Part shown: piece by piece, positions 45,190 to 62,124 of the stretch | Layout: every line of letters starts with the position of its first letter | Position numbering within the stretch: position 1 is the stretch's first letter | Assembly: GCF_003202235.1 (NCBI RefSeq) | Contig: NZ_MASU01000006.1 | Coordinates: forward strand, 372,001 to 436,000 | Direction: 5' to 3' | DNA from: Prauserella flavalba | GTDB lineage: Bacteria; Actinomycetota; Actinomycetes; Mycobacteriales; Pseudonocardiaceae | Length of the DNA stretch: 64,000 nucleotides | The notes under the pieces: model-generated | The model's input: the letters and a program-made list of their open reading frames with translations, nothing else | Databases searched by the model: none | What the model was told of the DNA's origin: nothing | Translations under genes and position numbers: made by a program

Positions 45190-45640
45190 GCGCGACCGGG
45201 AGTTGAGCGAGACTCCGCTGCCCGACGCGGTGCGCGACCATCGTGCCGCGGTCTGGTACTCGTTCGTGCTGTCCGCCATCTACTACCTGGTGGGCTACTT
45301 CCCGACGTTCCTTCAGCTCACCGCGGGCCTGAGCCGGGTCGACGCGCTCACCGCCAACGGTCTCGCGCTCGTCGTGTTCATCGTCGCGATCTGCGCCGCG
45401 GGAACCGCGGGAGACCGCATCGGACGGCGCACGATGATCAGGATCGGCGCCTGCCTCCTGGTGCTGGCGGCGGTGCCCGCCTTCCTGCTCGCCTCGTCCG
45501 GGTCGATCGGCGGTGCCATCGCCGGGCAGGCCCTCGTCGCGCTGTCGCTCGGCGTGTTCGGCGGGGGCAGCTACCCGGCGCTGCTCGAGGTGCTACCGAC
45601 CCGCACCCGGCTCTCCGGTGCCTCGCTCGGCTACAACCGG
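45190..45640 (+). pseudogene. MFS (metabolite:H+ symporter type) transporter fragment
   Basis: A reading frame through this interval encodes about five transmembrane helices matching the second half of an MHS-type MFS carrier (AVWYSFVLSAIYYLVGYFPT, GTAGDRIGRRTMIRIGACLL, GVFGGGSYPALLEVLPT and SGASLGYN). The first half is absent and the end is cut inside the family's SLGYN motif, exactly where the convergent hydrolase gene ends. It is a remnant. The DNA before it (45025-45130) can be read on the minus strand as a C-terminal tail ending ARKRDWL and stop, perhaps another remnant. Confidence 0.7.
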
Positions 45641-46461
45641 CTCGCCAGCTGCCGGGCGAACCACCGCGTGAGCACCTCGTCCACCGCCTTGGCGACAGGC
45701 AGCTGGGGAGCCGGTTCCAGGCCCGGCTCCCCGGCCAGCGGGTGCGCCAGGTCCGGCACGGAGACCAGCTCGACCTCCTCGGGCCGCGCGTACCGGGCGC
45801 GCAGGGCGCCGACCAGGTCGGCGGCGTCCGCGCGCAGCGCGGGATGGTCCTGCTCCCCGGAGACGAGCAGCAGGGGCGGTTGCCCCGTGAGATCTCCGGC
45901 GCGGGCCACGAAGTCCAGTTCCTCGGCGGTCCGGTGGGCTTCCTCGGTCCACCGGTACGGGTGCCCGGCGATGCCCTCGACGAGCCCGACGGCGGAGCGC
46001 ACCCGCACCGCGGGGTTGACGAGCGCGGCCGCCCTGACCGGGATCCGCTGCGTGGTCAGCACCCGCAGCGCGACGGCATCGCCGAGCGAGGCGCCGAGCA
46101 CGCCGACCGGTCCGTCGTCCACCGGAAGCTGTTCACGCAGCGCGGCCAGTGCCGCCGGGAACTCCTCGGCGGCCTGCCGGGTGAACGGAGCCAGGAAGGA
46201 CAGCAACGCGTCCTCGCGGGCCAGCTCGAGCACGGCGTCGACGCGGCCGTCGACCATCCGTGCGCCGCACATCGGCATGCCGAGGTGGACCCGCCAGGCG
46301 GGTACGCCGGACATCGGCAGCGCGGCCGCGAACGCCGCGTCCGTGCGCGGCGCGTCCAGCATGTGCCACGTCACGAGCAACGGTGCGCGACCGTCGTCCG
46401 CCCCCTCCGGTGGGAGCGCCGTGAACGGCACCCCGGCCGCCGTGCCAGTGATCGTCTTCAT
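45631..46461 (-). CDS. Alpha/beta hydrolase-fold protein
   Basis: 276 residues from ATG 46461. Nucleophile elbow GVLGASLGDAV (G-x-S-x-G), a PPLLLVSGEQDHPAL strand carrying the acid, and a VPDLAHPL His near the C-terminus complete the triad. The N-terminal part has LLVTWHMLDAP, an unusual oxyanion strand for the esterase-like group. Its last codons overlap the MFS remnant. It follows the SDR/MFS/HisD-like genes at an 80-bp gap and may be the last gene of that LacI-controlled operon. Substrate unknown; an ester or lactone of the pathway substrate is possible. Confidence 0.82.
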   Translation of the reverse strand: MKTITGTAAGVPFTALPPEGADDGRAPLLVTWHMLDAPRTDAAFAAALPMSGVPAWRVHLGMPMCGARMVDGRVDAVLELAREDALLSFLAPFTRQAAEEFPAALAALREQLPVDDGPVGVLGASLGDAVALRVLTTQRIPVRAAALVNPAVRVRSAVGLVEGIAGHPYRWTEEAHRTAEELDFVARAGDLTGQPPLLLVSGEQDHPALRADAADLVGALRARYARPEEVELVSVPDLAHPLAGEPGLEPAPQLPVAKAVDEVLTRWFARQLASRL

Positions 46462-46541
46462 GCCGCCTCCTCGGTTCCGGACCAGAACCGTAAGCGGCAC
46501 AACGGTTGCCGCGACAGCGCTTTCGCCACCGGCGAAAGGGC

Positions 46542-47285
46542 TCAGCGAATGGTGTAGCCGCCGTCGACGGCGAGGGTGTGCCCGGTGACGAGCGCGGCCT
46601 CGTCGCTCAGCAGGTACGCCACCGCGTCCGCGATCTCCCTCGGTTCGCCGAAGCGGCCGACGGGGATGCGCGAGAGCAGCTCGGCCGCCCACTCCGGGCG
46701 GCTGAGCGTGGACTCGGTCAGCTCGGTGCGCACGAACGTGGGCGCCACGGCGTTGACGCGGATGCCCGCCCGCGCCCATTCGAGCGCGAGCAGCTTCGTC
46801 ACGTGGATCAGGCCCGCCTTGCTCGCGCCGTAGGCGGCCCGCTCCTCGATCGCGACCAGGCCCGCCTGCGAGGCGACGTTCACGATCGCGGCGGGCGTTC
46901 CGGTGCGCAGCCAGTGCTTCGCGAACGCGGTCGAGAGGAAGAACGCACCCGTGAGGTTGGCCCCGAGCACCGTGTTCCAGTCCGAGGGGGTGACCTCGAC
47001 GGCGGGTTTGGGGATGTTCACGCCCGCGTTGTTGACCAGCAGGTGGATGCCGCCACTGGCGGCCGTGACGTCCTCGGCGAACGACGCGAAGCTCTCCACG
47101 TCGTTCAGCTCCAGCCGCAGCGGCGCGGTGCCGTAGCGGCGGCCGATCTCCTCGGCGCCCCCGGCGTCGCGGCTCGTGCCGTACACCGTGGCGCCGAGCT
47201 CCGCGAGACGGTCGGCGATGGCCCTGCCGAGCCCGCGCGTGGCCCCGGTGACGAGGGCGTTCTTTCCGGTCAGGTCGAAGCTCAT
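46542..47285 (-). CDS. SDR-family dehydrogenase, candidate dihydroxypropanesulfonate 2-dehydrogenase
   Basis: 247 residues, classical SDR: VTGATRGLGRAIADRL, NNAGVN, VNVASQAGLVA and the AAYGASKAGL Tyr/Lys pair, ending GHTLAVDGGYTIR. The start overlaps the stop of the MFS gene by 4 bp, so it belongs to the operon HisD-like, MFS, SDR. In proteobacterial dihydroxypropanesulfonate clusters, dehydrogenases HpsO/HpsP accompany HpsN to interconvert the substrate enantiomers; this SDR could serve there. The function is inferred from context only. Confidence 0.88.
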   Translation of the reverse strand: MSFDLTGKNALVTGATRGLGRAIADRLAELGATVYGTSRDAGGAEEIGRRYGTAPLRLELNDVESFASFAEDVTAASGGIHLLVNNAGVNIPKPAVEVTPSDWNTVLGANLTGAFFLSTAFAKHWLRTGTPAAIVNVASQAGLVAIEERAAYGASKAGLIHVTKLLALEWARAGIRVNAVAPTFVRTELTESTLSRPEWAAELLSRIPVGRFGEPREIADAVAYLLSDEAALVTGHTLAVDGGYTIR

Positions 47286-48631
47286 CGGCTCTCCGCAACG
47301 GTTTCGGGCGCGGCGTCACCGATCTCGTCGAGTTCGAGGTGGCGACGGTCGGGGGCGAACGCGATCGCCACCATCGCGATCAGCGTGGTCCCGATGGCGA
47401 ACGCGATCACCATCCAGAGGCTACCTCCCGCCCACAGCACCATCGCGCTCGCCAGCGCGGGGGTGAAGCTCGCGAGGATGATCGACGCCATCTGGTAGCC
47501 GATCGAGATGCCCGAGTACCGCACCGAAGTCGGGAACATCTCGCAGTACAGCGCGGGCAGGGGAGCGTAGACGAGCGCGTGGCCCAGTGCCAGGAACAGC
47601 ACCACGCCGAGCACGATGCCCCACAGCTCGCCGGTTTCGATCAACGCGAACACCGGCCACGTGGTGACGACGATGAGCGCGCCGCCGAGCAGGAACGTCC
47701 GCACGCGACCGATCCGGTCGGACAGCGCGCCGAACACCGGGATCATGACGATGTTCACCGCCGCGCCGATCATCGACGCCGTCAGGCCGTGGGACTCGGG
47801 GACGCCGAGCGTGCCGGTGACGTAGGACAGCACGAACGTGGTGAACAGGTAGTAGTTCCCGGCCTCGGCGAACCGGCCGAAGATCGTGATCAGCAGCGGC
47901 CTGCGGTGGTGGCGGAACAGGATGGCGGCCGGTGCCTTGCGGCGCTCCAGCTCGGCGTCCATCTTCTCCTTCTCGGCGAGGAATGCCGGGCTTTCGGTGG
48001 CCCGCAGCCGGATGAAGAACCCGACGGACGCGAGCAGGATGCTGAGCAGGAACGGCACCCGCCAGCCCCACTGGTCGAACGCGTCACCGGAGATCCACGA
48101 CGAGAACGACACGGCGGCCGTCCCCAGCAGCAGCCCGGCGGAAACCCCGATCTGGGGCCAGGAACCGAAGTAGCCGCGCCGTGCCCGGGGAGCGTTCTCC
48201 ACGGCGACGATCGCCGCCCCGCCCCACTCGCCGCCGACGGCGAAGCCTTGCGCCAGCCGCAGCACGCACAACAGCAGTGGCGCGGCGACCCCGATCTGGT
48301 CGTAGGTCGGCATGAGTCCGATCGCCGCGGTCGCCACGGTCATGATCGAGAACGTGAGGATCAGCGTGGACTTGCGGCCGATCCGGTCACCAAGGTGCCC
48401 GGCGACGAACGCGCCGAGTGGCCGGGCGAGGAAGCCCACGCCGAACGACGCGAGCGAGACGATCTGACCGATGCCGGGGGAGAGGTTCGGGAAGAACAGG
48501 TGCCCGAACACGAGGGCGGCGGCGACCCCGTAGATCGTGTACTCGTACCACTCGACGATCGCGCCGATGGTGCCGGACTGCAGCGAACGACGGCGGACCT
48601 GCTCCGGGGTCAGGGTGGCGGCGGTGGACAT
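47282..48631 (-). CDS. MFS transporter, metabolite:H+ symporter family
   Basis: 449 residues, 12 transmembrane helices. It has the MHS start GTIGAIVEWYEYTIYGVAAA, loop 2-3 motif GHLGDRIGRKSTLI and the GEWGGAAIVAVENAPRARRG segment shared with KgtP/ShiA/ProP. Members import organic acids and osmolytes with protons. It lies between the HisD-like dehydrogenase and the SDR, consistent with uptake of the substrate that these enzymes oxidise; HpsU of Cupriavidus has an equivalent position as an MFS uptake system. Confidence 0.9.
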   Translation of the reverse strand: MSTAATLTPEQVRRRSLQSGTIGAIVEWYEYTIYGVAAALVFGHLFFPNLSPGIGQIVSLASFGVGFLARPLGAFVAGHLGDRIGRKSTLILTFSIMTVATAAIGLMPTYDQIGVAAPLLLCVLRLAQGFAVGGEWGGAAIVAVENAPRARRGYFGSWPQIGVSAGLLLGTAAVSFSSWISGDAFDQWGWRVPFLLSILLASVGFFIRLRATESPAFLAEKEKMDAELERRKAPAAILFRHHRRPLLITIFGRFAEAGNYYLFTTFVLSYVTGTLGVPESHGLTASMIGAAVNIVMIPVFGALSDRIGRVRTFLLGGALIVVTTWPVFALIETGELWGIVLGVVLFLALGHALVYAPLPALYCEMFPTSVRYSGISIGYQMASIILASFTPALASAMVLWAGGSLWMVIAFAIGTTLIAMVAIAFAPDRRHLELDEIGDAAPETVAESR

Positions 48632-48677
48632 GGCGGGATCTCCGTTGATCGGACTCGGGGACGGGACGGCGGGATCG

Positions 48678-49997
48678 TCAGGCCGAGACGGTCCGGTAGT
48701 GGTCGGTCCAGGGCAGTTCGGCGCCGGCGTACTTGGCCGCCCTGACGTCGCCGGAGCGGGCGTGCCCCTCGAACAGCTCGACCCTGGCCGCGCGGCCGCA
48801 CAGCACGCCGAGGTCGGCCGACGCCTGCCGGTCGCGCACCTCCTGGTAGGTGACCGTGCGCAGGTACATGCCCACCCACAGGCCGCCGGTGTAGCGGGCG
48901 GCGCCGCGGGTCGGCAGCACGTGGTTGGTGCCGATCACCTTGTCCCCATAGGACACACACGTGCCCTCGCCGAGGAACAGCGCGCCGTAGGCCCGCATCT
49001 TGTCCAGCGCCTCCCCGGGGTTCCCGGTGAGGATCTGCACGTGCTCGTAGGCGAACTCGTCGGCGACGCGGTAGGCCTCGTCGAGGTCGTCCACCAGGAT
49101 GACCTGGCCGTGGTCGCGCCAGGCCGGGCCCGCGATGTCCGCAGTGGACATTCCGGGCAGGATCTCCTCGATGTGCCGCTGCACCTCGGTGGCGAGCTGC
49201 TCGCTGGTGGTGACGAGCACGGCGGGGGAGTCGGGCCCGTGCTCGGCCTGCGAGAGCAGGTCCACGGCGACGACGAACGGGTCGGCCCGCTCGTCGGCGA
49301 CGATCAGGATCTCGGTGGGCCCGGCGAACAGGTCGATGCCGACCTCGCCGAAGAGCTGGCGCTTGGCCTCGGCCACGTAGGCGTTGCCGGGACCGGCCAG
49401 CATGTCGACCTTGTCGATGGTCTCGGTGCCGACGCTCATCGCGGCGATCGCCTGCACGCCGCCGAGGAGGTAGATCTCGTCGGCTCCGGCGAGCCGCATC
49501 GCGGCGACGGTCGCGGCGGGGATCTCGCCGCGGATCGGCGGCGTGCACGCGACCACGCGCGGCACGCCCGCGGCCTTGGCGGTCACGATCGTCATGTGCG
49601 CCGAGGCCGTGAGGGGGTAGCGGCCGCCGGGGATGTACGCGCCGACGGACTGGATGGGCACGTGCCGGTGGCCGAGGAACACACCGGGCGCGGTCTCCAC
49701 CTCGATCTCGGACATCGACGCCAGCTGCGCCTCGGCGAAGCGGCGGACGTTGGCCTGCACGGTCTCGATGTCGGCGATCACCTGCGGGTCGAGCGTGCCG
49801 ACGATCTCGTCGAGCTGCTCTTCGCTCAGGCGGAACGACTCGGGCTCCCAGCGGTCGAAGCGCGCCGACAGCTCGCGCACCGCCTCGTCGCCGCGCGTGC
49901 GGATGTCCGCGATGAGGTCACGGACGGTCTGGGCGACGGCGTCGTTCCCGGACGGTGCGGAGGACGCGGTGGTGGCGGCTTTGATCGTGCGGGGCAC
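48678..49997 (-). CDS. Histidinol dehydrogenase-family enzyme, candidate sulfopropanediol 3-dehydrogenase (HpsN-like)
   Basis: 439 residues from GTG 49997. Full HisD fold with retained active-site features: SVGAYIPGGRYPL, MLAGPGNAYVAEAKRQLFG, GIDLFAGPTEILI, LLSQAEHGPDSPA, YEHVQI (Glu-His), GTNHVLPTRGAARYTG and EGHARSGDVR. No other his genes are near; instead it is the first gene of a LacI-controlled catabolic operon. HpsN is a HisD homologue that oxidises (R)-dihydroxypropanesulfonate to (R)-sulfolactate in two NAD+-dependent steps, analogous to histidinol to histidine. The HpsN assignment rests on context with SuyAB-, SlcC- and ComC-like genes. Confidence 0.8.
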   Translation of the reverse strand: MPRTIKAATTASSAPSGNDAVAQTVRDLIADIRTRGDEAVRELSARFDRWEPESFRLSEEQLDEIVGTLDPQVIADIETVQANVRRFAEAQLASMSEIEVETAPGVFLGHRHVPIQSVGAYIPGGRYPLTASAHMTIVTAKAAGVPRVVACTPPIRGEIPAATVAAMRLAGADEIYLLGGVQAIAAMSVGTETIDKVDMLAGPGNAYVAEAKRQLFGEVGIDLFAGPTEILIVADERADPFVVAVDLLSQAEHGPDSPAVLVTTSEQLATEVQRHIEEILPGMSTADIAGPAWRDHGQVILVDDLDEAYRVADEFAYEHVQILTGNPGEALDKMRAYGALFLGEGTCVSYGDKVIGTNHVLPTRGAARYTGGLWVGMYLRTVTYQEVRDRQASADLGVLCGRAARVELFEGHARSGDVRAAKYAGAELPWTDHYRTVSA

Positions 49998-50023
49998 GCT
50001 CGGCTCCTTTGCTCGGCACTGCT

Positions 50024-50054
50024 GTGGATACGTATCCAATGGATACGTATCCAC
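50024..50054. promoter_or_regulatory. Double LacI-type operator: two copies of TGGATACGTATCCA
   Basis: TGGATACGTATCCA, itself a perfect 14-bp palindrome with a central CG, occurs at 50025-50038 and 50040-50053, separated by one A. The full 31-bp stretch 50024-50054 is one perfect palindrome around position 50039. It lies 27 bp before the HisD-like start and 48 bp after the lacI stop. The CG-centred form fits LacI/GalR-family operators and the adjacent LacI protein. Confidence 0.88.
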
Positions 50055-50101
50055 ACGATGGGCCACCGGTATGGCCGTGGTCAAGGAGTGTGATCGGTGC
50101 C

Positions 50102-51097
50102 TCAGGCGGGAGCGGTGGTCGAGCGCTCGACGAACTCGACGGGAAGCACCTCGTGCCGGTACGGCGCGTCCGGTTCGGCGAGCCTGCCGAGCAGCAGCTC
50201 CACCCCCACCTCCGCGATGCGCTCCAGCGGCTGGCGAACCGTGGTGAGGTCGATGCGCTCCCACGCCGACAGCGGCACGTCGTCGCAGCCCAGCACGCTC
50301 AGCTCGCGGGGCACCGCCACGCCGCACGCCGCCGCGGCGTTGAGCGCCGCGTAGGCCATGACGTCGTTCTGGCAGAACAGCGCCGTGGGTGGCGAGTGCT
50401 CCGACAGCAGTGCGCGGACCGCCGTGTAGGTGGCCGCGTAGTCGTAGGAACCGTCGACCTCGGTGAGCACCGCGTCCCCGGCCTCCGCGGCCCGCTCGCG
50501 GAAGCCACGGCCCCGCTGCGCGGCCGTGCTCGCCCCGGCCAGTCCGCGCACCATCGCGATGCGGCGGTGGCCGAGCGACAGCACGTGCTCGGCCGCCAGC
50601 CGCCCCGCGGTGACGTTGTCGGCCTCCACCTGGTCGGCGGGGAACCCCGCCAGCGTGCGATGGCAGAGCACCAGCGGGATGCCGTGGCCGGCGATGCGGT
50701 GCGCCAGCGGGTCGTCGGCCACGGCCGAGGTGAACACGACGCCGTCCACGCCCTCCCGCCGCAGCAGGGCCAGCCCCTCGTCCGCGGTCAGCACGTCGGT
50801 GACGAGCGTGAGGCGCAGGCCCTGCGCGTGCAGCACGCGCTCCATCGCCTTGATCATCACGGGGTAGAAGGGGTTGGTCAGGTCGCGGATCACCACGCCG
50901 ATGAGCCCCGAGCGGGCACCCACGAGGCTGCGCGCCGCCTGGCTCGGCTGGAAGTCGTACTTCGCCAGCACCTCCAGCACCCGGCGCCGCGTGCCGGGCG
51001 CGACGCTCCCGCCGTTGAGCACCCGGGACACCGTCGACTGGGCAACACCCGCCTCACGAGCGATCTGGACGCTCGTGACCGCCGGGCGCCGTGCCAT
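50102..51097 (-). CDS. LacI-family transcriptional regulator
   Basis: 331 residues from ATG 51097, with GGAGGTGAGGG upstream. The helix-turn-helix is VTSVQIAREAGVAQSTVSRV and LNGGSV, the hinge LVGARSGLIGVVIRDL, and a periplasmic-binding-protein-like effector domain follows (NPFYPVMIKAMERVL, GVDGVVFTS, ALFCQNDVMAYAALN, LSVLGCDDVPLS). It sits between the ComC-like gene and the HisD-like operon on the same strand. The double palindrome just downstream is its probable operator, so it should repress the HisD-like/MFS/SDR genes until a pathway metabolite binds. Confidence 0.93.
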   Translation of the reverse strand: MARRPAVTSVQIAREAGVAQSTVSRVLNGGSVAPGTRRRVLEVLAKYDFQPSQAARSLVGARSGLIGVVIRDLTNPFYPVMIKAMERVLHAQGLRLTLVTDVLTADEGLALLRREGVDGVVFTSAVADDPLAHRIAGHGIPLVLCHRTLAGFPADQVEADNVTAGRLAAEHVLSLGHRRIAMVRGLAGASTAAQRGRGFRERAAEAGDAVLTEVDGSYDYAATYTAVRALLSEHSPPTALFCQNDVMAYAALNAAAACGVAVPRELSVLGCDDVPLSAWERIDLTTVRQPLERIAEVGVELLLGRLAEPDAPYRHEVLPVEFVERSTTAPA

Positions 51098-51154
51098 GTC
51101 CCTCACCTCCGGTTGTGCCGGAGGTCAGGATATGGCGTGCCCGGCGGCCCCCGG

Positions 51155-52177
51155 TCACTCCGGCGGCACGCCGAGCCGCTCCGCCCACTGCCGCAGTTCC
51201 CGCACGGTCCCGTCGTCGACCTTCAGCGGGGTGTGCGGGTCGACGTTCTCGGGCAGCACCCGGTCGCGGCCGGGCAGCCTGCCGCCCGCGTCCTCGACCG
51301 ACGCAGCCAGCCGGTCGAGCCGCTTCGCCGCCGCCTCGCCGCCGCCGGCGAAGCGGGCCGGGTCGAGTGTGATCAGGACGTGGCCGATGCGCTGCGGATT
51401 CGGGGCGTCGGACTCGGTGAACATGTCCGGCACGTCCGCGGACAGGTTGGGGCCGGCCAGCCCGCCAGCCAGCGACTCCACCAGGAGCGCCAGCGCGAAG
51501 CCCTTCGCCCCGCCCAGCGGCGAGAGCATGCCGTAGAGCGCCTCCTGCGGGTCGGTCGTCGGGGTGCCGTCCGCCGCGAGCGCCCACCCTTCGGGCAACT
51601 GCGTGCCGCGGCGTGCGTGCGCCGCGATCTTGCCTCGGGCCACCGCACTGGTGGCCATGTCGATGATCGCGGGCCGGGGCCGGGCAGGGATCCCGGCGGC
51701 CAGCGGCGACGTAGACAGCAGCGGCTTGGCTCCGCCCCACGGCGGCATCACGGCGGGCCCGTTGGAGAACGCGAGGGTCAGCAGGCCCTCGCGGAGCCCG
51801 GGAACCGTGTAGAGCCCCAGTGCGCCGCAATGCCCGGAGTCGGCGACGGCGACCGCGCCGATGCCGTACCGGCGGCACCGGGACACGGCGAGCCCCGCCG
51901 CCTCCCAGAGCTGCCAGTGCCCGAGCCCGCCGCCCCCGGTGGCCGACACGACCGGCCCGGTGTCGTCCACCACCCGCAGCTCGGCGTCCGGGGGATACCC
52001 GCCCGCCGCCATGCGCTGCAGGTAGTACGGCAGCCGCATCAGGCCGTGCGAGCCGATGCCCCACACGTCGGCCATCACGATGCAGCGCGCGGACGTGCGC
52101 GCGTTCCCGGGGTCCATGCCCGCCGCCGTGAGCAGGCCGCTCGCCAGTGCCTCGGCGGAGGCCACCGTCTCCGTCAC
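51155..52177 (-). CDS. comC: Malate/L-lactate dehydrogenase (Ldh_2) family enzyme, candidate (R)-sulfolactate dehydrogenase
   Basis: 340 residues from GTG 52177, in GTGA overlap with the hydroxyacid dehydrogenase. Ldh_2 family: DVWGIGSHGLMRLPYYLQRM with the catalytic His, AVADSGHCGALGLYT, LSTSPLAAGIP, IIDMATSAVARGKI and PLGGAKGFALALLVESLAG. This is not the classical Rossmann lactate dehydrogenase. ComC, (R)-sulfolactate dehydrogenase, belongs to this family and reduces sulfopyruvate to (R)-sulfolactate. Its tight pairing with a D-hydroxyacid dehydrogenase mirrors the slcC-comC pair that inverts sulfolactate stereochemistry in Chromohalobacter. Other 2-hydroxyacids remain possible. Confidence 0.78.
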   Translation of the reverse strand: MTETVASAEALASGLLTAAGMDPGNARTSARCIVMADVWGIGSHGLMRLPYYLQRMAAGGYPPDAELRVVDDTGPVVSATGGGGLGHWQLWEAAGLAVSRCRRYGIGAVAVADSGHCGALGLYTVPGLREGLLTLAFSNGPAVMPPWGGAKPLLSTSPLAAGIPARPRPAIIDMATSAVARGKIAAHARRGTQLPEGWALAADGTPTTDPQEALYGMLSPLGGAKGFALALLVESLAGGLAGPNLSADVPDMFTESDAPNPQRIGHVLITLDPARFAGGGEAAAKRLDRLAASVEDAGGRLPGRDRVLPENVDPHTPLKVDDGTVRELRQWAERLGVPPE

Positions 52178-53145
52178 GACCGGGCCTCCTTCGCCGTGCC
52201 CACCGCGGAGCTGGCGCGCCCACCGCCGAGCACCGCGTCGATGTCCTCGGCGAGCGTGCGCGCGATGCGCGCCTGGCTCTGGGCCGTGATGCCCGCGACG
52301 TGCGGCGTGAGCACCACGTTGTCCAGCTTCTCCAACCGCCCGGTTTCCGGCGGCTCGCTCGCCCGCACGTCGAGTGCCGCCCCGCCGAGCGCGCCCGACT
52401 CCAGCGCGTCGGCGAGCGCGTCCTCGTCCACCACCTCGCCGCGCCCGACGTTGACGAACAGGGCCGAGGGCCGCATCCGGCCCAGCAGCGCGGCGTTCAC
52501 CAGGCCGGTGGTGTCCGGGGTGGCGGGCAGATGGCAGGAGAGCACGTCGGCCCCGGCCACGACCTCCTCCAGCGGTGCCAGCTCGATCCCGGCGCGCGCC
52601 AGCTCCGGGTGGGCCGGGTCGAGGTACGGGTCGTGGGCCAGCACTCGCATGCCCAGCGACCCGGCCAGCTCCCCGCACGCCCTGGCGGTGGCCCCGCAAC
52701 CGAGCAGGCCCCAGGTGCCCCCGCGCAGCTCCCGTCCGGGTGCGCGGTTCCAGCCGCCCTTGCGGCAGTCGGCGTCGAGCCGCACGATGCCCCGCGCCAG
52801 GGTCAGCGCCAGCCCGATCGTGTGCTCGGCGACGCTCACCGCGTTGGCGCCGAGGGGCGCCGTCACCACCACGCCCGCCTCGTCGGCGGCGGGCAGGTCG
52901 ATGTTGTCCAGGCCCACGCCTGCGCGCGCCACGACGGTCAGCCGCTCGCCCGCGGTGAGCAGCGCCCGGTCCACCTGGGTCCGGTTGCGGACCACGAGCG
53001 CCCTGCTGCGCCGCACCGCCTCGGTCAGCAGCTCCGGCTCCTTCCAGTACCCGGCCTCGCGCACCACCCGGTAGCGCGTGGCCAGCTCCTCGAAGGCGGT
53101 TCCCCACACGTCCTCGCTGACCAGGACGTCGATCGGCTCACTCAT
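52174..53145 (-). CDS. slcC: D-2-hydroxyacid dehydrogenase (SerA-like), candidate (S)-sulfolactate dehydrogenase
   Basis: 323 residues. The substrate-binding lobe (LVVRNRTQVDRALL, VVARAGVGLDNIDL) is followed by ANAVSVAEHTIGLALTLARG, a Rossmann core WGLLGCGATARACGELAGSL, the catalytic Arg in NVGRGEVVDEDALA, Glu in DVRASEPPE and His in LTPHVAGIT. SlcC, which oxidises (S)-sulfolactate to sulfopyruvate with NAD+, is in this family. It overlaps the ComC-like gene by 4 bp and the next upstream gene by 8 bp. The family is broad, so the substrate is inferred from neighbours. Confidence 0.8.
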   Translation of the reverse strand: MSEPIDVLVSEDVWGTAFEELATRYRVVREAGYWKEPELLTEAVRRSRALVVRNRTQVDRALLTAGERLTVVARAGVGLDNIDLPAADEAGVVVTAPLGANAVSVAEHTIGLALTLARGIVRLDADCRKGGWNRAPGRELRGGTWGLLGCGATARACGELAGSLGMRVLAHDPYLDPAHPELARAGIELAPLEEVVAGADVLSCHLPATPDTTGLVNAALLGRMRPSALFVNVGRGEVVDEDALADALESGALGGAALDVRASEPPETGRLEKLDNVVLTPHVAGITAQSQARIARTLAEDIDAVLGGGRASSAVGTAKEARS

Positions 53146-55548: not shown

Positions 55549-56973
55549 TCAGATGCCCAGTGACAGGTACCTGGTCTCTTCGAATTCCTCCAGTCCCAGC
55601 TCGGCTCCCTCCCGGCCGAGCCCGGACTGCTTGCTGCCGCCCATCGGGGCGAACGCGACACTGGGCAGCGCGTTGTTGATGCCGACGATCCCGGCGTCGA
55701 GCTGCTCGGCCATCCGCCACGTCCGGGAGTTGTCGCGGGTGTAGAAGTAGGCGGCCAGGCCCATCTCGGTGGCGTTGGCCTCGGCCACCACCTCGTCCTC
55801 GTCGCGGAAGGAGAAGATCCCCGCCGCGGGGCCGAAGACCTCCTCGCGCGCGAGCGCGGTGTCGCGCGGCACGTCCACGAGCAGGGCGGGCGCGGCGAAG
55901 GACCCCGAGGGCAGCTGCCGCTCCTTGGTCACCAGCTTGGCGCCGGCGGCGAGCGCCTCGTCGACCATGCCGGTCACGGCGGCCACGCGCGCGTCGTCGA
56001 TGCACGGGCCGAGGTCCGGCACGGGGCTGGCGAGGCCGTCGCCGATCGACATCGCGTCCACGGCCTCGGCGAAGCGGGTGGTGAACTCCTGGTGCACCTC
56101 CGTGTGCACGTAGAAGCGGTTGGCCCCGATGCAGGACTGGCCGGTGTTGCGGAACTTGGCGAGCAGCGCACCCTCCACGGCGGCGTCGAGGTCGGCGTCG
56201 GGGAAGACGATGAACGGCGCGTTGCCGCCCAGCTCCAGCAGGGGACGCACGACGCGCTCGGCCGCCTTCGCCATGATCGACCGGCCCACGCCGGTGGAAC
56301 CGGTGAACGACACGACCCGCACCTCGGGGTGGCCGAGGTAGGCGTCGGTGATCGCGGCCGAGGGCCCGTGCACGAGGTTGACCACCCCGTCGGGAAGGCC
56401 CGCGTCGGTCAGGCAGCGAACCATCTCCGTGGCCGCGAGCGGCGCCTTCTCCGAGACCCTGGCCACCACGGTGCACCCGGCGGCCAGCGCGGGTGCCAGC
56501 TTGCGCGCCTGGATCGAGCACGGGAAGTTCCACGGCGTCAGGCTCGCGACCACGCCCGCGGGCCTGCGGATGGTCAGGTGCCTGCGGCCGGGGGCCTCGT
56601 GCGGGCGCACCTCACCGCTGGGGCGGCGGCACTGCTCGGCGAACCAGCGGAAGTACTCGGCGGAGAAGCGCAGCTCCCCGATCGCCTCCGGGGCTCTCTT
56701 GCCCGCCTCCGCGGCGAGCAGGGTGCCGATCTCCTCGGCGCGCTGGGCGATCAGCTCGGCGGCGCGCAGCAGCAGGTCGGCGCGGGCGCGGGCGGGGGTG
56801 TGCGACCACGCGCCGAACGCCGTGGCCGCCGCGTCCGCCGCGGCGCGCGCCTGCTCGGGGCCGCTGTAGTCGACCGTGCCGACCACGGAGCCGTCCACGG
56901 GATTGCGGATCTCCCGTGGTGTGCCCGCCGAGTGCCATTCGCCGGCGATGAGTGTCGAGGCCACCTGTGGCAT
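55549..56973 (-). CDS. Aldehyde dehydrogenase, GabD type; candidate sulfolactaldehyde dehydrogenase
   Basis: 474 residues from ATG 56973. NAD(P)+-dependent ALDH: TPWNFPCSIQARKLAPALAA, VVSFTGSTGVGRSI, general base Glu in LELGGNAPFIVF, nucleophile Cys in NTGQSCIGANRF, EEVFGPAAGIF and PMGGSKQSGLGREG. Sulfolactaldehyde dehydrogenases of the sulfo-Entner-Doudoroff pathway are GabD-like, so this enzyme can supply sulfolactate. Succinate semialdehyde or glycolaldehyde remain alternatives. Separated from suyB by a stem-loop, and 45 bp before the MFS start. Confidence 0.85.
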   Translation of the reverse strand: MPQVASTLIAGEWHSAGTPREIRNPVDGSVVGTVDYSGPEQARAAADAAATAFGAWSHTPARARADLLLRAAELIAQRAEEIGTLLAAEAGKRAPEAIGELRFSAEYFRWFAEQCRRPSGEVRPHEAPGRRHLTIRRPAGVVASLTPWNFPCSIQARKLAPALAAGCTVVARVSEKAPLAATEMVRCLTDAGLPDGVVNLVHGPSAAITDAYLGHPEVRVVSFTGSTGVGRSIMAKAAERVVRPLLELGGNAPFIVFPDADLDAAVEGALLAKFRNTGQSCIGANRFYVHTEVHQEFTTRFAEAVDAMSIGDGLASPVPDLGPCIDDARVAAVTGMVDEALAAGAKLVTKERQLPSGSFAAPALLVDVPRDTALAREEVFGPAAGIFSFRDEDEVVAEANATEMGLAAYFYTRDNSRTWRMAEQLDAGIVGINNALPSVAFAPMGGSKQSGLGREGAELGLEEFEETRYLSLGI

Positions 56974-57047: not shown

Positions 57048-58211
57048 TCAGGCGCTGGGGTAGAGCCTGGTGAGCACGAACTCGCGGTGGCCGAGCGACT
57101 CGGCGCACGTGAGCCTGCCGTTGATCGTGCGGTCGATGACCTCCATCAGCTGGTCACCCGCCGTGGTCAGGTTGTACTCCTGGCGCAGCAGCCCCGAGCA
57201 GTCCAGATCGATGTGCTCCGACATCGTCTCGGTGGTGAGCGGGTTGGCGCTGAGCTTGACCACCGGCTCGATGGGGTTGCCGATCACGTTGCCCTGTCCG
57301 GTCGGGAACAGGTGGATCACCGCGCCCGCGGCGGCCATCAGCGTCACGCATTCGGCGGCGGCCGACGAGGTGTCCATGAAGTACAGACCGGGGCCGGAGG
57401 CGGGAGCCTCGGCCGAGTCGAGCGCGCCGACCACCGGCTTGCTGCCGGTCTTGGCGATGTTGCCCATCGCCTTCTCCTCGATGGTCGACAGGCCACCGCG
57501 GATGTTGCCCTGCGTGGGCTGCGAGCCGAGCAGGTTCGCCCCGGTGCGCTCGATCATCTCGATGTAGTTGTCGTAGATCTCCTGGAACCGGGCGCGCACC
57601 GAGTCGTTGACGCAGCGCTGGGCGATCAGGTGCTCGCCGCCCGTGAGCTCGCTGGTCTCGCCGAACAGCACCGTGCCGCCCGCGTCGACCCAGCGGTCCA
57701 CGGCCTCGGAGGTGGTCGGGCACGAGCCGAGTCCGCTGGTGGTGTCGGACTCGCCGCACTTGATCGACAGCATCACCTCGTGCCGCTGCACGGCCTCCCG
57801 CTGCTTTTCGGAATCGTCGCGGAGGAACTCCGCCGCGGCGCGCGCCGCGGCCTCGATCGTGCGGAGGTCGCCGTGGCGTTCGATGGAGAACGCGCGCACC
57901 TTCTTGCCGGTCTTGGCGATGCCGTGGGCGACCTTGTCCGTCCAGTTCGGCTCGATCCCGATCACCACGACCGACGCGACGTTGGGGTTGCACCCGGTGC
58001 CGATGAGCGTGCGGAAGGTCAGGTCGAGATCGGGTCCGAACTGCAGCCTGCCGTACGCGTGCGGCAGCGCGAGCGTGCCCGGTACGACGGCGGCGACCGC
58101 CTCGGCGGCGGCGTTCGACAGGTCGTCGACGGGCAGGATGATGGTGTGGTTCCGGATGCCGACCGCGCCGTTCTCCCGGCGGAACCCGGTCAGGCCACGC
58201 TGTTCTGCCAC
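57048..58211 (-). CDS. suyB: UxaA-family large subunit, candidate (R)-sulfolactate sulfo-lyase subunit beta
   Basis: 387 residues from GTG 58211. UxaA/GarD C-terminal family: VGIRNHTIILPVDDLSNAAA, LIGTGCNPNVASVVVIGIEP, MLSIKCGESDTTSGLGSCPT, VLFGETSELTGGEHLIAQRC and VIHLFPTGQGNVIGNPIEPV. The conserved Cys residues hold the Fe site in relatives. The split small/large organisation and the ESDTTSGL/ELTGGE variant fit SuyB better than altronate or galactarate dehydratase, by memory of the family. SuyAB cleaves (R)-sulfolactate to pyruvate and sulfite. It overlaps suyA by 22 bp. Confidence 0.75.
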   Translation of the reverse strand: MAEQRGLTGFRRENGAVGIRNHTIILPVDDLSNAAAEAVAAVVPGTLALPHAYGRLQFGPDLDLTFRTLIGTGCNPNVASVVVIGIEPNWTDKVAHGIAKTGKKVRAFSIERHGDLRTIEAAARAAAEFLRDDSEKQREAVQRHEVMLSIKCGESDTTSGLGSCPTTSEAVDRWVDAGGTVLFGETSELTGGEHLIAQRCVNDSVRARFQEIYDNYIEMIERTGANLLGSQPTQGNIRGGLSTIEEKAMGNIAKTGSKPVVGALDSAEAPASGPGLYFMDTSSAAAECVTLMAAAGAVIHLFPTGQGNVIGNPIEPVVKLSANPLTTETMSEHIDLDCSGLLRQEYNLTTAGDQLMEVIDRTINGRLTCAESLGHREFVLTRLYPSA

Positions 58212-58498
58212 CGCGCGCTCCTCACGTTGTGTACATGGACGTACCCGCCCTTGGGGATGTCGGCGGTCGCGATGCCGACCCGGTGTCCGTACTCGATGAC
58301 GTCCTGGCCCTCGGCGATGTCGGTGAGCGCCAGTTTGTGCCCCAGTGGCACCGGTTCGAGCAGTTCGATCGTCACGTTCTCCGGACCGCGAAGGTATCCG
58401 CCCTCGACCGGACCCGGCTCCAGGTCGCGTACCGCGACCGCCACCAGGTCTCCGTCGTGGTGGGCGAGATAGCCCGGCAAGCCGGTTGCCTGCGCCAT
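58190..58498 (-). CDS. suyA: SAF-domain small subunit, candidate (R)-sulfolactate sulfo-lyase subunit alpha
   Basis: 102 residues from ATG 58498, the usual length for SuyA (about 90-100). SAF/UxaA N-terminal fold: DLVAVAVRDLEPGPVEGGYL, the PVPLGHKLALTDIAEGQDVI strand-helix, and IEYGHRVGIATADIPKGGYV then HVHNV, which matches the small subunit of altronate-dehydratase-like lyases. It forms the active site with the SuyB-like subunit encoded directly downstream. First gene of the minus-strand run; a FadR-type half-palindrome lies 18-28 bp upstream of its start, so the GntR regulator encoded divergently should control it. Confidence 0.75.
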   Translation of the reverse strand: MAQATGLPGYLAHHDGDLVAVAVRDLEPGPVEGGYLRGPENVTIELLEPVPLGHKLALTDIAEGQDVIEYGHRVGIATADIPKGGYVHVHNVRSARWQNSVA

Positions 58499-58515
58499 GT
58501 CTCTCCCTTGGCTAG

Positions 58516-58526
58516 AGGTCTTACCA
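58516..58526. promoter_or_regulatory. GntR/FadR-type operator site A (GGTCTTACCA) upstream of suyA
   Basis: AGGTCTTACCA matches the FadR-subfamily pattern (T)-N-G-T-N3-A-C-N-A and is almost identical to the site at 58604-58614. It begins 18 bp upstream of the suyA ATG. A GGTAA half-site in inverted orientation follows at 58540-58544. Confidence 0.65.
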
Positions 58527-58603
58527 TTTTCCCGGACGAAGGTAACTCGCCGGAGCGCGCCGGACAAGGGGGTCTTCGCGCCTGGATCGCAACAGAGGTA
58601 AAG

Positions 58604-58614
58604 TGGTCTTACCA
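58604..58614. promoter_or_regulatory. GntR/FadR-type operator site B (TGGTCTTACCA) upstream of gntR
   Basis: TGGTCTTACCA fits T-N-G-T-N3-A-C-N-A perfectly and is embedded in a wider GGTAA-N7-TTACC inverted repeat (58597-58613). It is 27 bp before the GTG of the GntR gene, so autoregulation is likely. Confidence 0.7.
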
Positions 58615-58640
58615 AAGAGGTTACTTGTGGGGAGCAGCTT

Positions 58641-59393
58641 GTGGGCACTGACGCGAAGATGTGGACGCCGTTGGACCGGGGCATGGTGTCGGACCGGATC
58701 TCCGGGCAGATTCTCGAGGTCATCGCCGATGAGCGCCTGCGGCCCGGCGACCGCCTGCCGCCGGAGCGGGAGCTGGCCGCGCTGCTCGGCGTCAGCAGGC
58801 CGTCGCTGCGCGAGGCCCTGCGCTCGCTCAAGGCGCAGGGGCACGTCGAGGTCCGGCACGGCGCCGGCGTCTTCGTGGCCGACCCCGCGACCACGCGGAC
58901 GCTGCGCCAGGCGATGCTCACCGAGGAGATGAGCCTCGCCGAGCTGTTCGACATGCGTGAGGTGCTGGAGCTGCCCGCGGCTGCCTGGGCGGCGAGCAAC
59001 GGCGACGCCGCGAAGCTCGCCGCGGTGAGGGAGACCTACGAGCGGCTCGACGCCGCGACCCGCGAGGACCCGGTCGACTGGGGCAAGCTGCAGGAGCTCG
59101 ACGCCGCGTTCCACATGCGCATCGTCGAGGCGGCGGGCAACCGGTTCATGATGCGGACGCTCACGGTGCTGCAGGAGATCCTGGCGCGCGGCATGGAGAC
59201 CACGCTGCGGGTGCCGGGCAGGCTGGAGAAGTCCAGGGTCGACCACCGCCGCATCCTCGACGCACTGCTGGCAGGCGACCCCGTGGCGGCGCGGCGCGCC
59301 GTCAAGGCGCACATCAACGGCGCCCGCAAGGCCGCCATGTCCAGGCTGCACGACGAGCAGCCCGATCCACAGAGGACTGAGCGAACGAAATAG
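58641..59393 (+). CDS. GntR-family (FadR/FCD) transcriptional regulator
   Basis: 250 residues from GTG 58641, GGGGAG 7 nt upstream. Winged helix: ISGQILEVIADERLRPGDRL, PPERELAALLGVSRPSLREA and LRSLKAQGHVEVRHGAGVFV. The FCD effector domain (~95-235) has the metal-binding pattern with LDAAFHMRIVEAAGN and KSRVDHRRILDALL (Asp/His ligands). FadR-type regulators usually sense organic acids such as lactate, glycolate or gluconate. It is divergent from suyA and precedes the transporter pair. Three FadR-type sites at 58516, 58604 and about 59486 indicate that it controls suyAB, itself and the transporters. Confidence 0.92.
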   Translation: MGTDAKMWTPLDRGMVSDRISGQILEVIADERLRPGDRLPPERELAALLGVSRPSLREALRSLKAQGHVEVRHGAGVFVADPATTRTLRQAMLTEEMSLAELFDMREVLELPAAAWAASNGDAAKLAAVRETYERLDAATREDPVDWGKLQELDAAFHMRIVEAAGNRFMMRTLTVLQEILARGMETTLRVPGRLEKSRVDHRRILDALLAGDPVAARRAVKAHINGARKAAMSRLHDEQPDPQRTERTK

Positions 59394-59485
59394 TTCTTCG
59401 TTTCCGCACCTCAGCCCGCGCGCGGGCGCCGGAGAACGCTGAGCGAGGCTTGTCACCGCCGAGCCCGGCAGGGTAGAACCCTCAG

Positions 59486-59503
59486 TGGTACGACCTCTTA
59501 CCA
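59486..59503. promoter_or_regulatory. GntR/FadR-type operator site C upstream of the DctA-like gene
   Basis: TGGTACGACCTCTTACCA: TGGTA and TACCA arms form an inverted repeat with an 8-nt centre, and TGGTACGACCT matches the FadR pattern at ten of eleven positions with TCTTACCA overlapping it. It ends 14 bp before the ATG at 59518. Confidence 0.6.
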
Positions 59504-59517
59504 CGAGGGAGGCTCGG

Positions 59518-60825
59518 ATGACCGCGGTACAACGAGGTTCCGCAGGCCCACGGATTCGCTCGCGCTGGCGAGCCCTGTCCCGTCAGCTGTACTTCTGGGT
59601 TCTCGTCGCCGTGCTCGCCGGCGCGCTGCTCGGGCTCCTGGCGCCGGGCGTCGGCGAGGCGCTCAAGCCGGCGGGCGACATCTTCATCAGCCTGATCAAG
59701 ATGATCATCACGCCCATCGTGTTCGTCACGGTGGTGCTGGGTATCTCCTCGGCGACCAGCCTGCGCAAGGTGGGCAGGGTCGGGGTCAAGGCGCTCGTCT
59801 ACTTCCAATGCATGACGCTGCTCGCGCTGACGCTCGGGCTGGTGGTCGCCGACGTGTTCCAGCCAGGCGCGGGCCTGAACATCGACCCGGCGACCCTGAG
59901 CGGGCAGGACCTTCCGCCCGCCGACGAGACACCGAGCGGTGTGGGCGGCCTGCTGGAGAGCATCGTCCCGGACAGCGTCGTCGGCGCCTTCGCCGACGGG
60001 AACATCCTGCAGGTGCTGGTGTTCGCGATCCTGTTCGGCGTGGCGCTGACCCTGCTCGGCGAGCGGGGCGCGACGCTGCGCACCGGGCTGGAGTCCGTGC
60101 AGCACGTCTTCTTCACGATCCTGCGCGTGGTCATGTACTTCGCGCCCGTCGGCGCGTTCGGCGCGGTCGCGTTCACCACCGGCAAGTACGGAGCCGAGAC
60201 ACTGGGCAGGCTCGGCGCGCTCATGGCGTGCTTCTACCTCACCTGTGTGCTGTTCGTGTTCGGCGGGCTGGCACTCGTGCTGCGGCTCTGCGGGATCTCG
60301 CTGTGGCGGCTGCTGCGGTACTTCCGCCAGGAGCTGCTCGTGGTGCTCGCCACGACGTCCACGGAAACCGTGCTGCCACAGTCGATGGACAAGCTGCAAC
60401 GGATCGGGTGTGGACGGTCGGTGGTCAACCTGACCATCCCGTCCGGATACTCGTTCAACCTCGACGGCGCCGCGATCTACCTGACCATGACCTCGCTGTT
60501 CATCGCGCAGGCGCTCGACATCCCGCTCACGCTCGGCGACCAGCTGCTGCTGCTCGGCGTGCTGGTCATCTCGGCGAAGGGCGGCGCGGGAGTGGCGGGC
60601 GCCGCGCTCGCGGTGCTCGCGGCCACGCTGTCGGCAGTGCCCACCATCCCGGTGGCCGGGATCGCGCTGATCATCGGCATCGACCGGTTCATGAACGAGG
60701 CGCGCGCACTGACCAACCTGATCGGAAACCTCGTCGCCACCATCGTGGTCTCCCGGTGGGAGCGCGACTTCGACGTCCAGCGGGCCAGGGCCGTGCTGTC
60801 GGGCGCCCGGCCGGGAGAGGTGTGA
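59518..60825 (+). CDS. Dicarboxylate/amino acid:cation symporter (DctA/GltP family)
   Basis: 435 residues from ATG 59518, GAGGGAGG upstream. DAACS family: LIKMIITPIVFVTVVLGISS, a serine-rich reentrant loop variant VVLATTSTETVLPQSMDKLQ, NLTIPSGYSFNLDGAAIYLT and the TM8 motif GIALIIGIDRFMNEARALTN. Such carriers take up C4-dicarboxylates, glutamate or similar acids with Na+ or H+. Adjacent to a GntR regulator and a second permease, it probably imports an acid substrate or intermediate of the adjacent pathway. Confidence 0.92.
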   Translation: MTAVQRGSAGPRIRSRWRALSRQLYFWVLVAVLAGALLGLLAPGVGEALKPAGDIFISLIKMIITPIVFVTVVLGISSATSLRKVGRVGVKALVYFQCMTLLALTLGLVVADVFQPGAGLNIDPATLSGQDLPPADETPSGVGGLLESIVPDSVVGAFADGNILQVLVFAILFGVALTLLGERGATLRTGLESVQHVFFTILRVVMYFAPVGAFGAVAFTTGKYGAETLGRLGALMACFYLTCVLFVFGGLALVLRLCGISLWRLLRYFRQELLVVLATTSTETVLPQSMDKLQRIGCGRSVVNLTIPSGYSFNLDGAAIYLTMTSLFIAQALDIPLTLGDQLLLLGVLVISAKGGAGVAGAALAVLAATLSAVPTIPVAGIALIIGIDRFMNEARALTNLIGNLVATIVVSRWERDFDVQRARAVLSGARPGEV

Positions 60826-60828
60826 GCG

Positions 60829-62124
60829 ATGCCCATCGAACTCGTCGCGCTGATCGGTCTGCTGGTGGTCTTCGCGATCACCACCGTGCTCGACGTCAAC
60901 ATGGGCGCGGTGGCGTTCGTCGCCGCGTTCGCCGTCGGCACCCTCGTCGCCGGTGTCCCGGTGGACGAGGTGATCACCGAGGGCTTCCCCGCCGAGCTGT
61001 TCCTCACCCTGGTCGGCGTCACGTACCTGTTCGCCATCGCCCGCGACAACGGCACGATCACGTGGCTCACCTCGGCGGGGGTGCGGATGGTGCGGGGACG
61101 GCTCGTGCTCGTGCCGTGGGTGATGTTCGTGGTCACCGGGCTGCTGGCGATGGCGGGCGCTCCGCTGGTCGCCGTGATCGCCGTGCTGGCTCCCGTGGCG
61201 CTGGAGTTCGCGCGCCGCTACGACATCAAACCCCTGCTCATGGGGTTGATGGTGGTCAACGGCGGCGCGGCGGGCGGGCTCGCGCCCAGCAGCGTGCTCG
61301 GCAGCCTCAGCAACGCCGTCGTCGAGAGCAACGGCCTCGCCATCGACCCGGTGCTGCTGTTCGCGGGCTCGCTGGCCTTCAACCTCGCACTCGGGGTGAC
61401 CGGTTTCGTCCTCTTCGGCGGGCTGCGGCTCATCGGCGTGCGGACGGCGGTGCCCGCACGCGTCGGCGTCACCGGGCGTGGTGGTGTGGCGGTGGCCGAG
61501 CCCCCGGACGAACCCGAAGCCGACGCCGGGCTGGACCGGCACCGCGTGGCCACCCTCACCGGCCTGGTCGTGCTCGCCGTCGGCGCGCTCGCGTTCGAGG
61601 TGAACATCGGCGTGCTGGCGATGACGGTGGCGGTGGCGCTGTCGGTCGCGAGGCCGTCGGTGGGCAGGCAGGCCGTGCACCAGGTCGCGTGGCCGACCGT
61701 GCTGCTCGTCTGCGGCACGCTGACCTACGTCAACCTGCTGCAGACGCTCGGCACGCTCGACTACCTCGGGCGCGGGGTCGCCGCCGTCGGCGTGCCGATA
61801 CTCGGCGCGCTGATCATCTGCGGCATCGGCGCGCTCGGCTCGGCCTTCGCCTCGACCATCGGCATGCTGGGCGCCCTCATCCCGCTGGCGGTGCCGCTGC
61901 TCGGTGACAGCACGCTCAGCGCGACGGCGCTGATCACCGCGCTGGCGATCTCGTCGCTGGTGGTGGACGCGAGCCCGCTGTCGTCCACGGGCGCGCTCGT
62001 CGTGGCCAACACGCCGGCGCCGCAGCGCGACCGCGTCTTCCGGCAGCTGCTGGTGTGGGGCTTCTCGCTCATCGTGATCGCCCCAGTCGTGACCTGCCTC
62101 GCGTTCGTGCTGCCGACGTCGTGA
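60829..62124 (+). CDS. SLC13/MatC-like permease (dicarboxylate carrier or anion exporter)
   Basis: 431 residues, only 3 bp after the DctA-like gene. About 12 helices with the MatC N-terminal start VALIGLLVVFAITTVLDVNM; two internally similar halves each contain a helical hairpin loop (GGAAGGLAPSSVLGSLSN and ASPLSSTGALVVANTPAPQR), as in ion-transporter superfamily carriers. Relatives transport malonate or other dicarboxylates; a sulfolactate, sulfite/sulfate or organic acid flux is conceivable here. It is the end of the transporter operon. Confidence 0.82.
   Translation: MPIELVALIGLLVVFAITTVLDVNMGAVAFVAAFAVGTLVAGVPVDEVITEGFPAELFLTLVGVTYLFAIARDNGTITWLTSAGVRMVRGRLVLVPWVMFVVTGLLAMAGAPLVAVIAVLAPVALEFARRYDIKPLLMGLMVVNGGAAGGLAPSSVLGSLSNAVVESNGLAIDPVLLFAGSLAFNLALGVTGFVLFGGLRLIGVRTAVPARVGVTGRGGVAVAEPPDEPEADAGLDRHRVATLTGLVVLAVGALAFEVNIGVLAMTVAVALSVARPSVGRQAVHQVAWPTVLLVCGTLTYVNLLQTLGTLDYLGRGVAAVGVPILGALIICGIGALGSAFASTIGMLGALIPLAVPLLGDSTLSATALITALAISSLVVDASPLSSTGALVVANTPAPQRDRVFRQLLVWGFSLIVIAPVVTCLAFVLPTS

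Follow-up and report, generated by a model that had tools for sequence, protein, structure and literature searches.

The question raised by this stretch of Prauserella flavalba DNA (64,000 nucleotides, referred to here as the window) is whether the genes between 45,631 and 62,124 form one island for the catabolism of C3 organosulfonates such as dihydroxypropanesulfonate (DHPS) and sulfolactate, or more than one unit. An earlier note on the sequence had proposed a single merged island under joint LacI and GntR control. All the genes that it named are there, each a long open frame with a family match, together with an alpha/beta hydrolase gene (45631-46461) that it left unnamed. The claimed island, however, consists of two units: unit 1 (51155-62124) and unit 2 (45631-51106). 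We put at about three in four (0.74) the probability that unit 1 is a GntR-linked C3-sulfonate catabolic set and that the block of lacI, hisD-like, MHS, SDR and hydrolase genes is a separate second unit. As judged from the sequence, the set in unit 1 very probably serves to degrade small sulfonates (sulfolactate and perhaps also DHPS), with pyruvate and sulfite as products. The features of unit 1 are as follows.

58190..58498, minus strand: SuyA-like small subunit of a putative (R)-sulfolactate sulfo-lyase, SAF domain (PF08666)
57048..58211, minus strand: SuyB-like large subunit of the same putative (R)-sulfolactate sulfo-lyase (GD_AH_second and GD_AH_C)
55549..56973, minus strand: GabD/SlaB-like aldehyde dehydrogenase (ALDH) of the succinate-semialdehyde dehydrogenase (SSADH) family, candidate sulfolactaldehyde dehydrogenase
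54040..55503, minus strand: MFS transporter, candidate for DHPS/sulfolactate uptake (PF00083/PF07690)
53138..54043, minus strand: 3-hydroxyisobutyrate-dehydrogenase-family (HIBADH) enzyme, candidate DhpA-like DHPS dehydrogenase
52174..53145, minus strand: SlcC-like (S)-sulfolactate dehydrogenase candidate (2-hydroxyacid dehydrogenase, PGDH-like)
51155..52177, minus strand: ComC-like (R)-sulfolactate dehydrogenase candidate (best NCBIfam model L-sulfolactate dehydrogenase, below cut-off)
58499..58640: divergent control region of 142 bp with two GGTCTTACC boxes (58517 and 58605)
58641..59393, plus strand: GntR/FadR-type regulator, transcribed divergently from the suy operon
59485..60825, plus strand: DctA-type carrier, candidate for sulfolactate uptake
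60829..62124, plus strand: MatC/SLC13-type permease (MatC_N/CitMHS)

The minus strand carries, in order of falling coordinate, suyA, suyB, ALDH, MFS, HIBADH, slcC-like, comC-like, lacI, hisD-like, MHS, SDR and alpha/beta hydrolase, and the plus strand gntR, dctA and matC/SLC13. From suyA to comC the gaps are -22, 74, 45, -4, -8 and -4 bp, negative values being overlaps (22 bp for SuyA/SuyB, 4 bp for MFS/HIBADH, 8 bp for HIBADH/SlcC, and 4 bp for SlcC/ComC, the last as the earlier note had read it). A further 48 bp separate comC from lacI and 104 bp lacI from hisD, followed by 46, -4, and 80 bp down to the hydrolase. The filter on GC content by codon position passes 11 of the 15 frames, those of the hydrolase, HisD, ComC, and SuyB not being listed; the gene scores were trained on these very genes and are not independent proof of coding.

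As expected of SuyAB, a separate small SAF subunit lies directly upstream of SuyB. SuyA is 69-72% identical to its homologues in Rhodococcus koreensis and RHA1 and 36% to SuyA of C. pinatubonensis; for SuyB the corresponding identities are 84.5% (Rhodococcus) and 63.3% (C. pinatubonensis). A tblastn search of the plasmid collection matched 316 records, and among the 60 listed, 13 showed 58-84.5% identity and the next 39.8%. The SuyB match of C. pinatubonensis HN-2 sits in a LacI-hpsN-hpsO-MFS-dehydrogenase-UxaA-UxaA cluster and is probably the studied protein, since its accession number is near that of the HpsN described in the available text of PMC11382572. When a quick tree of 55 rows was constructed, the window SuyB was observed inside a clade of 47 rows (SH-aLRT 100) with sequences from C. 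pinatubonensis, Paracoccus, and Desulfovibrio. The eight rows outside the clade were UxaA and GarD of E. coli, an altronate dehydratase of Azospirillum, two haloarchaeal sequences, and sequences from Priestia, E. albertii, and Variovorax. The phylogeny against sugar-acid dehydratases, for which the earlier note had called, thus did not group SuyB with UxaA, GarD or altronate dehydratase.

Individual residues tell the same story. A column was taken as SuyB-typical when at least 95% of the 111 in-set rows agree on it and all 7 outgroup rows deviate, and the window SuyB matches 23 of 23 such columns. At three outgroup-typical cysteine columns it has L31, a gap, and C152, so that two of the cysteines are lost; the C152 column holds Asp in 12 of the 111 in-set rows. 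Two in-set rows that have both of the cysteines lost from the window SuyB were retained in the residue count and are probably UxaA/GarD-type pieces from loci L139 and L142. According to the available text of PMC6336799, four cysteines are absent only from SuyAB among the members of the family, and the loss in the window agrees with this rule. Therefore, the claim of a SuyAB-like lyase is borne out by tree and residues, and a UxaA-type sugar-acid dehydratase identity was rejected on clade membership and residue columns. The pair resembles the SuyAB of C. pinatubonensis, Paracoccus, and Desulfovibrio in its two-subunit form, in SuyB identity (58-65%), in clade, and in residues; it differs in lying on an actinobacterial branch and in being known here from sequence. 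It would very probably eliminate sulfite from (R)-sulfolactate, leaving pyruvate.

Beside SuyAB, a 2-hydroxyacid-dehydrogenase gene and a ComC-family gene are adjacent. They share protein families, adjacency, and the SuyAB neighbour with the inverting SlcC/ComC pair of Chromohalobacter as cited in the available text of PMC12421959, a likeness drawn without sequence comparison. The route in the same text runs from S-sulfolactaldehyde through S-sulfolactate, sulfopyruvate, and R-sulfolactate to pyruvate plus sulfite, and the gene set of the window fits it without any HpsN. The genome scan for SuyB returned at least 597 stretches (588 confirmed), of which 80 loci were kept; many flanks were cut, so that all counts are lower bounds. 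SuyA was found at at least 67 of the 80 loci, SlcC at at least 34, ComC at at least 39, both SlcC and ComC at at least 31, GntR at at least 23, ALDH at at least 10, HIBADH at at least 6, and HisD at at least 2 (L076 and L082). Within the 22 of these loci labelled actinobacterial, SuyB, SlcC, and ComC stand together in at least 14. The SuyB-SlcC-ComC arrangement is not due to chance since it recurs in at least 31 of 80 loci, and the SlcC/ComC-like pair beside SuyAB, also named earlier, is conserved across many suyB loci. The full order GntR/SuyA-SuyB-ALDH-MFS-HIBADH-SlcC-ComC was observed in R. koreensis, Pseudonocardia kunmingensis (L016), and two loci of the same genus (L143 and L144). On plasmid pRHL1 of Rhodococcus jostii RHA1 (L006) the suy locus is rearranged, with short matches only to the MFS gene and a partial ALDH match on the opposite strand about 8 kb off. 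Plasmid 3 of Variovorax sp. PBL-E5 (L140, 714-6268) carries a look-alike cluster of GntR, a hydroxyacid dehydrogenase, a pair of UxaA-type genes, and a gene of the Ldh family; because of this locus, a layout of GntR, 2-hydroxyacid dehydrogenase, UxaA pair, and Ldh was rejected as proof of sulfolactate function by itself.

The entry of DHPS is best assigned to the HIBADH-family protein, as a candidate enzyme acting oxidatively like DhpA of Desulfovibrio. The earlier note had called it a YihU-family reductase; the gene is there, but its product is better described as DhpA-like than as a YihU-like reductase: four homologues from suyB loci of Desulfovibrio/Desulfobulbaceae share 42-44% identity with it, and YihU shares 27%. 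Among solved structures its best match is 9k2j (206 bits), and YihU (6sm7) scores 95 bits. A structure model (mean pLDDT, the predicted local confidence score, 75.6) added little to this look-up. The entry 9k2j was not used as a named DHPS dehydrogenase, since its title gives only 3-hydroxyisobutyrate dehydrogenase; it is very close to the DhpA-like protein of a Desulfovibrio cuneatus suyB locus (426 bits) and is possibly a DHPS dehydrogenase. In the available text of PMC6278857, DhpA belongs to the 3-hydroxyisobutyrate-dehydrogenase family, shares 27% identity with YihU, and oxidises DHPS before SlaB and SuyAB act. The window shares with that pathway of Desulfovibrio sp. DF1 a HIBADH-family dehydrogenase, a GabD-like ALDH, and SuyAB, a likeness drawn without the DF1 sequences. 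It differs in that its genes form one run together with SlcC/ComC, and in that the sulfite-oxidase and oxygenase genes of the organism suggest an aerobic life. The ALDH is 59-76% identical to ALDHs in seven suyB loci (L001, L016, L022, L025, L146, L147, and L148). Arg171, Arg289, and the Trp-Asn-Phe residues of RlGabD, proposed to bind the sulfonate, are present in it by eye, as they are in E. coli SSADH.

As for transport, the MFS gene occupies the same slot in L001, L016, L143, L144, L147, and L148, and homologues of the MatC/SLC13 permease (64-96%) occur in L016, L143, and L144. A DctA homologue lies beside suyAB in Methylobacterium, and no match to DctA was found in the same-genus stretch L143. 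The GntR protein is 70% identical to that of Rhodococcus, where its gene is also divergent. In the 64 kb, GGTCTTACC occurs in two copies, both between suyA and gntR. In the 12 distinct loci with divergent gntR/suyA, at least one GGTnnnACC was observed in 11 and two in 7, Sinorhizobium L008 having none; this and the other box counts in relatives are raw counts, without a chance expectation. Both GGTCTTACC boxes are probably bound by the FadR-type regulator, binding here being inferred from sequence.

Taken together, and with every substrate and direction inferred, the pathway may be described as follows. An MFS, DctA or SLC13 carrier would import DHPS or sulfolactate. Oxidation of DHPS (probably the S form) to sulfolactaldehyde would fall to the DhpA-like enzyme, and that of sulfolactaldehyde to (S)-sulfolactate to the SlaB-like ALDH. 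The SlcC-like and ComC-like enzymes may invert (S)-sulfolactate to (R)-sulfolactate by way of sulfopyruvate, and SuyAB would release sulfite and pyruvate. Disposal of the sulfite would probably be by oxidation, through a sulfite-oxidase homologue encoded elsewhere in the genome, or by export. The genome of the organism has one Mo-co dimer match, on another contig; among solved structures, this protein matches sulfite:cytochrome c oxidoreductase and sulfite oxidases best. It also has 12 TauE-family matches, too many for any one of them to be assigned as the sulfite exporter.

Unit 2 comprises the following features.

50102..51106, minus strand: LacI-family regulator of unit 2
50025..50053: tandem palindromes TGGATACGTATCCA in the lacI-hisD gap, candidate LacI operator
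48678..49997, minus strand: HisD-family enzyme of a G-R-Y-P-L class (TIGR00069, 459 bits)
47282..48631, minus strand: MHS-family metabolite/H+ symporter (TIGR00883, 411 bits against a cut-off of 443)
46542..47285, minus strand: SDR, overlapping the MHS gene by 4 bp
45631..46461, minus strand: alpha/beta hydrolase, last gene of unit 2 (PF00326, weak)

In the available text of PMC11382572, HpsN is marked by G-R-Y-A/S-H, with a His that binds the sulfonate, and HisD by G-S-A-P-L. The HisD homologue of the window reads G-R-Y-P-L, with Leu where HpsN has His126. It belongs to the same family as HpsN, the (R)-DHPS 3-dehydrogenase, is 45% identical to that of HN-2, and keeps the catalytic residues; it differs in lacking His126 and in lying in a separate unit. 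The earlier identification as HpsN consequently fails on the diagnostic His, and HpsN identity was rejected on motif and gene neighbourhoods. The neighbours do not match an HpsNOP cluster either, in which HpsN is accompanied by an SDR, HpsO, and a zinc alcohol dehydrogenase, HpsP: the SDR is 36% identical to HpsO of HN-2, and no zinc-alcohol-dehydrogenase was among the family hits for the genes at 45.6-62.1 kb. In 47 HisD rows (the window and 46 extracted, several being one locus fetched twice) the motifs were GGRYPL in 33, GGRYPM in 4, GGKYPL in 1, RFPL types in 4, GRYA/SH in 4, and canonical-like in 1; the four His-bearing rows (L005, L007, L076, and L082) are all suyB loci. Nearer HisD relatives (55-76%) lack suyAB in six of six plasmid loci examined, a LacI homologue lies on the HisD stretch in 9 of the 10 family loci that were fetched, an MHS gene follows HisD in L154, L155, L156, and L162, and a hydrolase homologue 93% identical occurs in the same-genus L144. 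The two copies of TGGATACGTATCCA in the window both lie between lacI and hisD, and neither GGTCTTACC nor TGGATACGTATCCA was found at the promoter of the other unit, so the two units have different predicted operators. In a set of 27 distinct HisD relatives, the window gene included, 15 are preceded by a TACGTA-centred palindrome, at actinobacterial loci and one Geobacillus locus. Synteny and operators set the LacI-HisD-MHS-SDR-hydrolase block apart as a unit of its own, against a single island under LacI and GntR.

As read from its genes, unit 2 would be a catabolic unit in its own right, under separate regulation, for the oxidation of some alcohol. There is about an even chance that its HisD-like gene represents a third HisD-family class (G-R-Y-P-L/M), neither histidinol dehydrogenase nor HpsN, which oxidises a primary alcohol as part of a module where LacI is the usual partner and an SDR, a hydrolase or an HpcH/HpaI aldolase a frequent one, and that in this genus the module came to lie beside a sulfolactate operon. 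Members with the motif occur in Actinomycetota, Bacillota, Bacteroidota, Deinococcota, and Pseudomonadota. The G-R-Y-P-L class is common in the family, and no function for it turned up in the papers searched. A non-phosphorylative sugar-acid pathway was considered for the unit; the available text of PMC6336799 contains neither "histidinol" nor "HisD", and searches gave nothing relevant. In L157 and L013 (by eye also L158 and L159) the same HisD class is accompanied by LacI, SDR, HpcH/HpaI aldolase, cupin, alpha/beta hydrolase, and SnoaL-like genes and sugar ABC transporters. Two further HisD-family genes of the organism's own genome (G000:C5:1385385-1386632 and G000:C13:634654-635820) have one a GRFPL and the other a canonical-like motif. 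For a frame at 45104-45640, beside the hydrolase gene, the match to an MHS-type permease is confined to the C-terminal half (positions 210-361 of a profile of 400), and the frame looks like a gene remnant.

Among 200 genomes of the family, SuyB was found in 13, the organism's own included (E 1e-120), and the HisD class in 47 (E 1e-140). The family is probably Pseudonocardiaceae, a label borne by several near rows in the SuyB tree. The two share a contig only in the own genome and in G084, as far as draft assemblies allow. In fetched suyB stretches from 10 of the 12 other SuyB genomes, one (G084) has HisD, and in fetched HisD stretches from 10 of the 46 other HisD genomes none has SuyB. In the same-genus genome G053 the suy stretch shows 88% DNA identity with a match that ends within comC, 12 bp before its 3' end, and no HisD of the window class was found in that genome at E 1e-140.

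Several points weigh against the two-unit, sulfonate-degrading interpretation. The SuyB tree was a quick one without bootstrap and with long outgroup branches, and the look-alike Variovorax cluster has its lyase outside the SuyB clade. The ComC candidate scores 195 bits against the cut-off of 500 of the curated L-sulfolactate dehydrogenase model NF040650, and was accordingly called ComC-like and not counted as a member. ALDH and HIBADH occur together in at least 2 of the 80 scanned suyB loci, with many flanks cut, and in 4 of 10 family loci. The best solved match of the ALDH is E. coli SSADH (425 bits), and no sulfolactaldehyde dehydrogenase (SLADH) was named among the 60 of 269 solved ALDH matches listed, so that sulfolactaldehyde as its substrate rests on gene context. 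Finally, SuyB and the HisD class occur together in 7 family genomes where about 3 would be expected (hypergeometric 0.014, kinship uncorrected, own genome among the 7), a mild sign of some link.

This co-occurrence suits a single merged island, in which the HisD homologue would be a working HpsN feeding an R-DHPS branch under joint LacI/GntR control. So do the adjacency of the units on the same strand, their being kept together in G084, the similar layout in HN-2 (LacI-hpsN-hpsO(SDR)-MFS beside suyAB, with the window MHS 39% identical to the HN-2 MFS), and the retention in HisD of Lys350, the motif Arg-Tyr, and the catalytic Glu, His, and Asp. Such an island is nonetheless unlikely: Leu replaces the His126 that the HisD-like genes of suyB loci L005, L007, L076, and L082 have, the nearer HisD relatives lack suyAB in the 6 plasmid and 10 family loci examined, G053 has unit 1 without the HisD class, and the predicted operators differ. 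More doubtful still is a sugar-acid or other beta-eliminating dehydratase in place of SuyAB, by which the operon would degrade a non-sulfonated hydroxy acid. The sole NCBIfam match of the pair is galactarate dehydratase, far under cut-off (142 against 731 bits), and the Variovorax cluster lends it some colour; the SuyB clade and residue tests speak against it.

Sulfolactate could also be the sole growth substrate, with ALDH and HIBADH serving another aldehyde or running reductively as YihU does. This has a small but appreciable chance, in that SuyB with SlcC and ComC (at least 31 of 80) is commoner than SuyB with ALDH and HIBADH (at least 2 of 80) and the ALDH is indistinguishable from SSADH. 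Against this stand the greater nearness of the HIBADH protein to the DhpA-like group than to YihU and the overlap of its gene with slcC. The GntR-linked C3-sulfonate set beside a separate unit 2 is preferred.

Elsewhere in the window, a binuclear-iron monooxygenase set (19675-24995; Phenol_Hydrox, reductase, and amidohydrolase, with more genes after) presumably resembles propane monooxygenase clusters. At 11182-15960 a hybrid histidine kinase of 1592 residues is encoded, with eight HAMP stretches, a GAF domain, and a receiver domain.

Pathways of this kind had been described in the earlier note as occurring mainly in Proteobacteria. This stands, within the available text of the sources, for HpsN-type clusters, HpsN being reported only from proteobacterial classes and Desulfobacteria (PMC11382572), and for a survey of SuyB at >70% identity, which names Proteobacteria and Firmicutes only and no Actinobacteria (PMC6278857). 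It does not stand for clusters that contain SLADH: in the neighbourhoods of SLADH genes, DHPS-degradation clusters are mainly limited to Actinobacteria (PMC10599462, 2023). Those clusters share with the window a PF03446 dehydrogenase and an SLADH-type ALDH, a likeness taken from the text with layouts uncompared. C3-sulfonate capacity is thus already indicated in print for the phylum, and unit 1 adds to a known cluster type. No paper on this exact operon was found in a search that left subscription journals mostly uncovered, and searches by actinomycete names found nothing on sulfolactate catabolism. For the HisD family, it appears that a HisD homologue beside suyAB is insufficient to call HpsN, the His126 motif separating the two. 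For the organism, unit 1 would offer a compact model from a Gram-positive bacterium, with the genes for DHPS oxidation, for sulfolactate inversion, and for C-S cleavage in one run.

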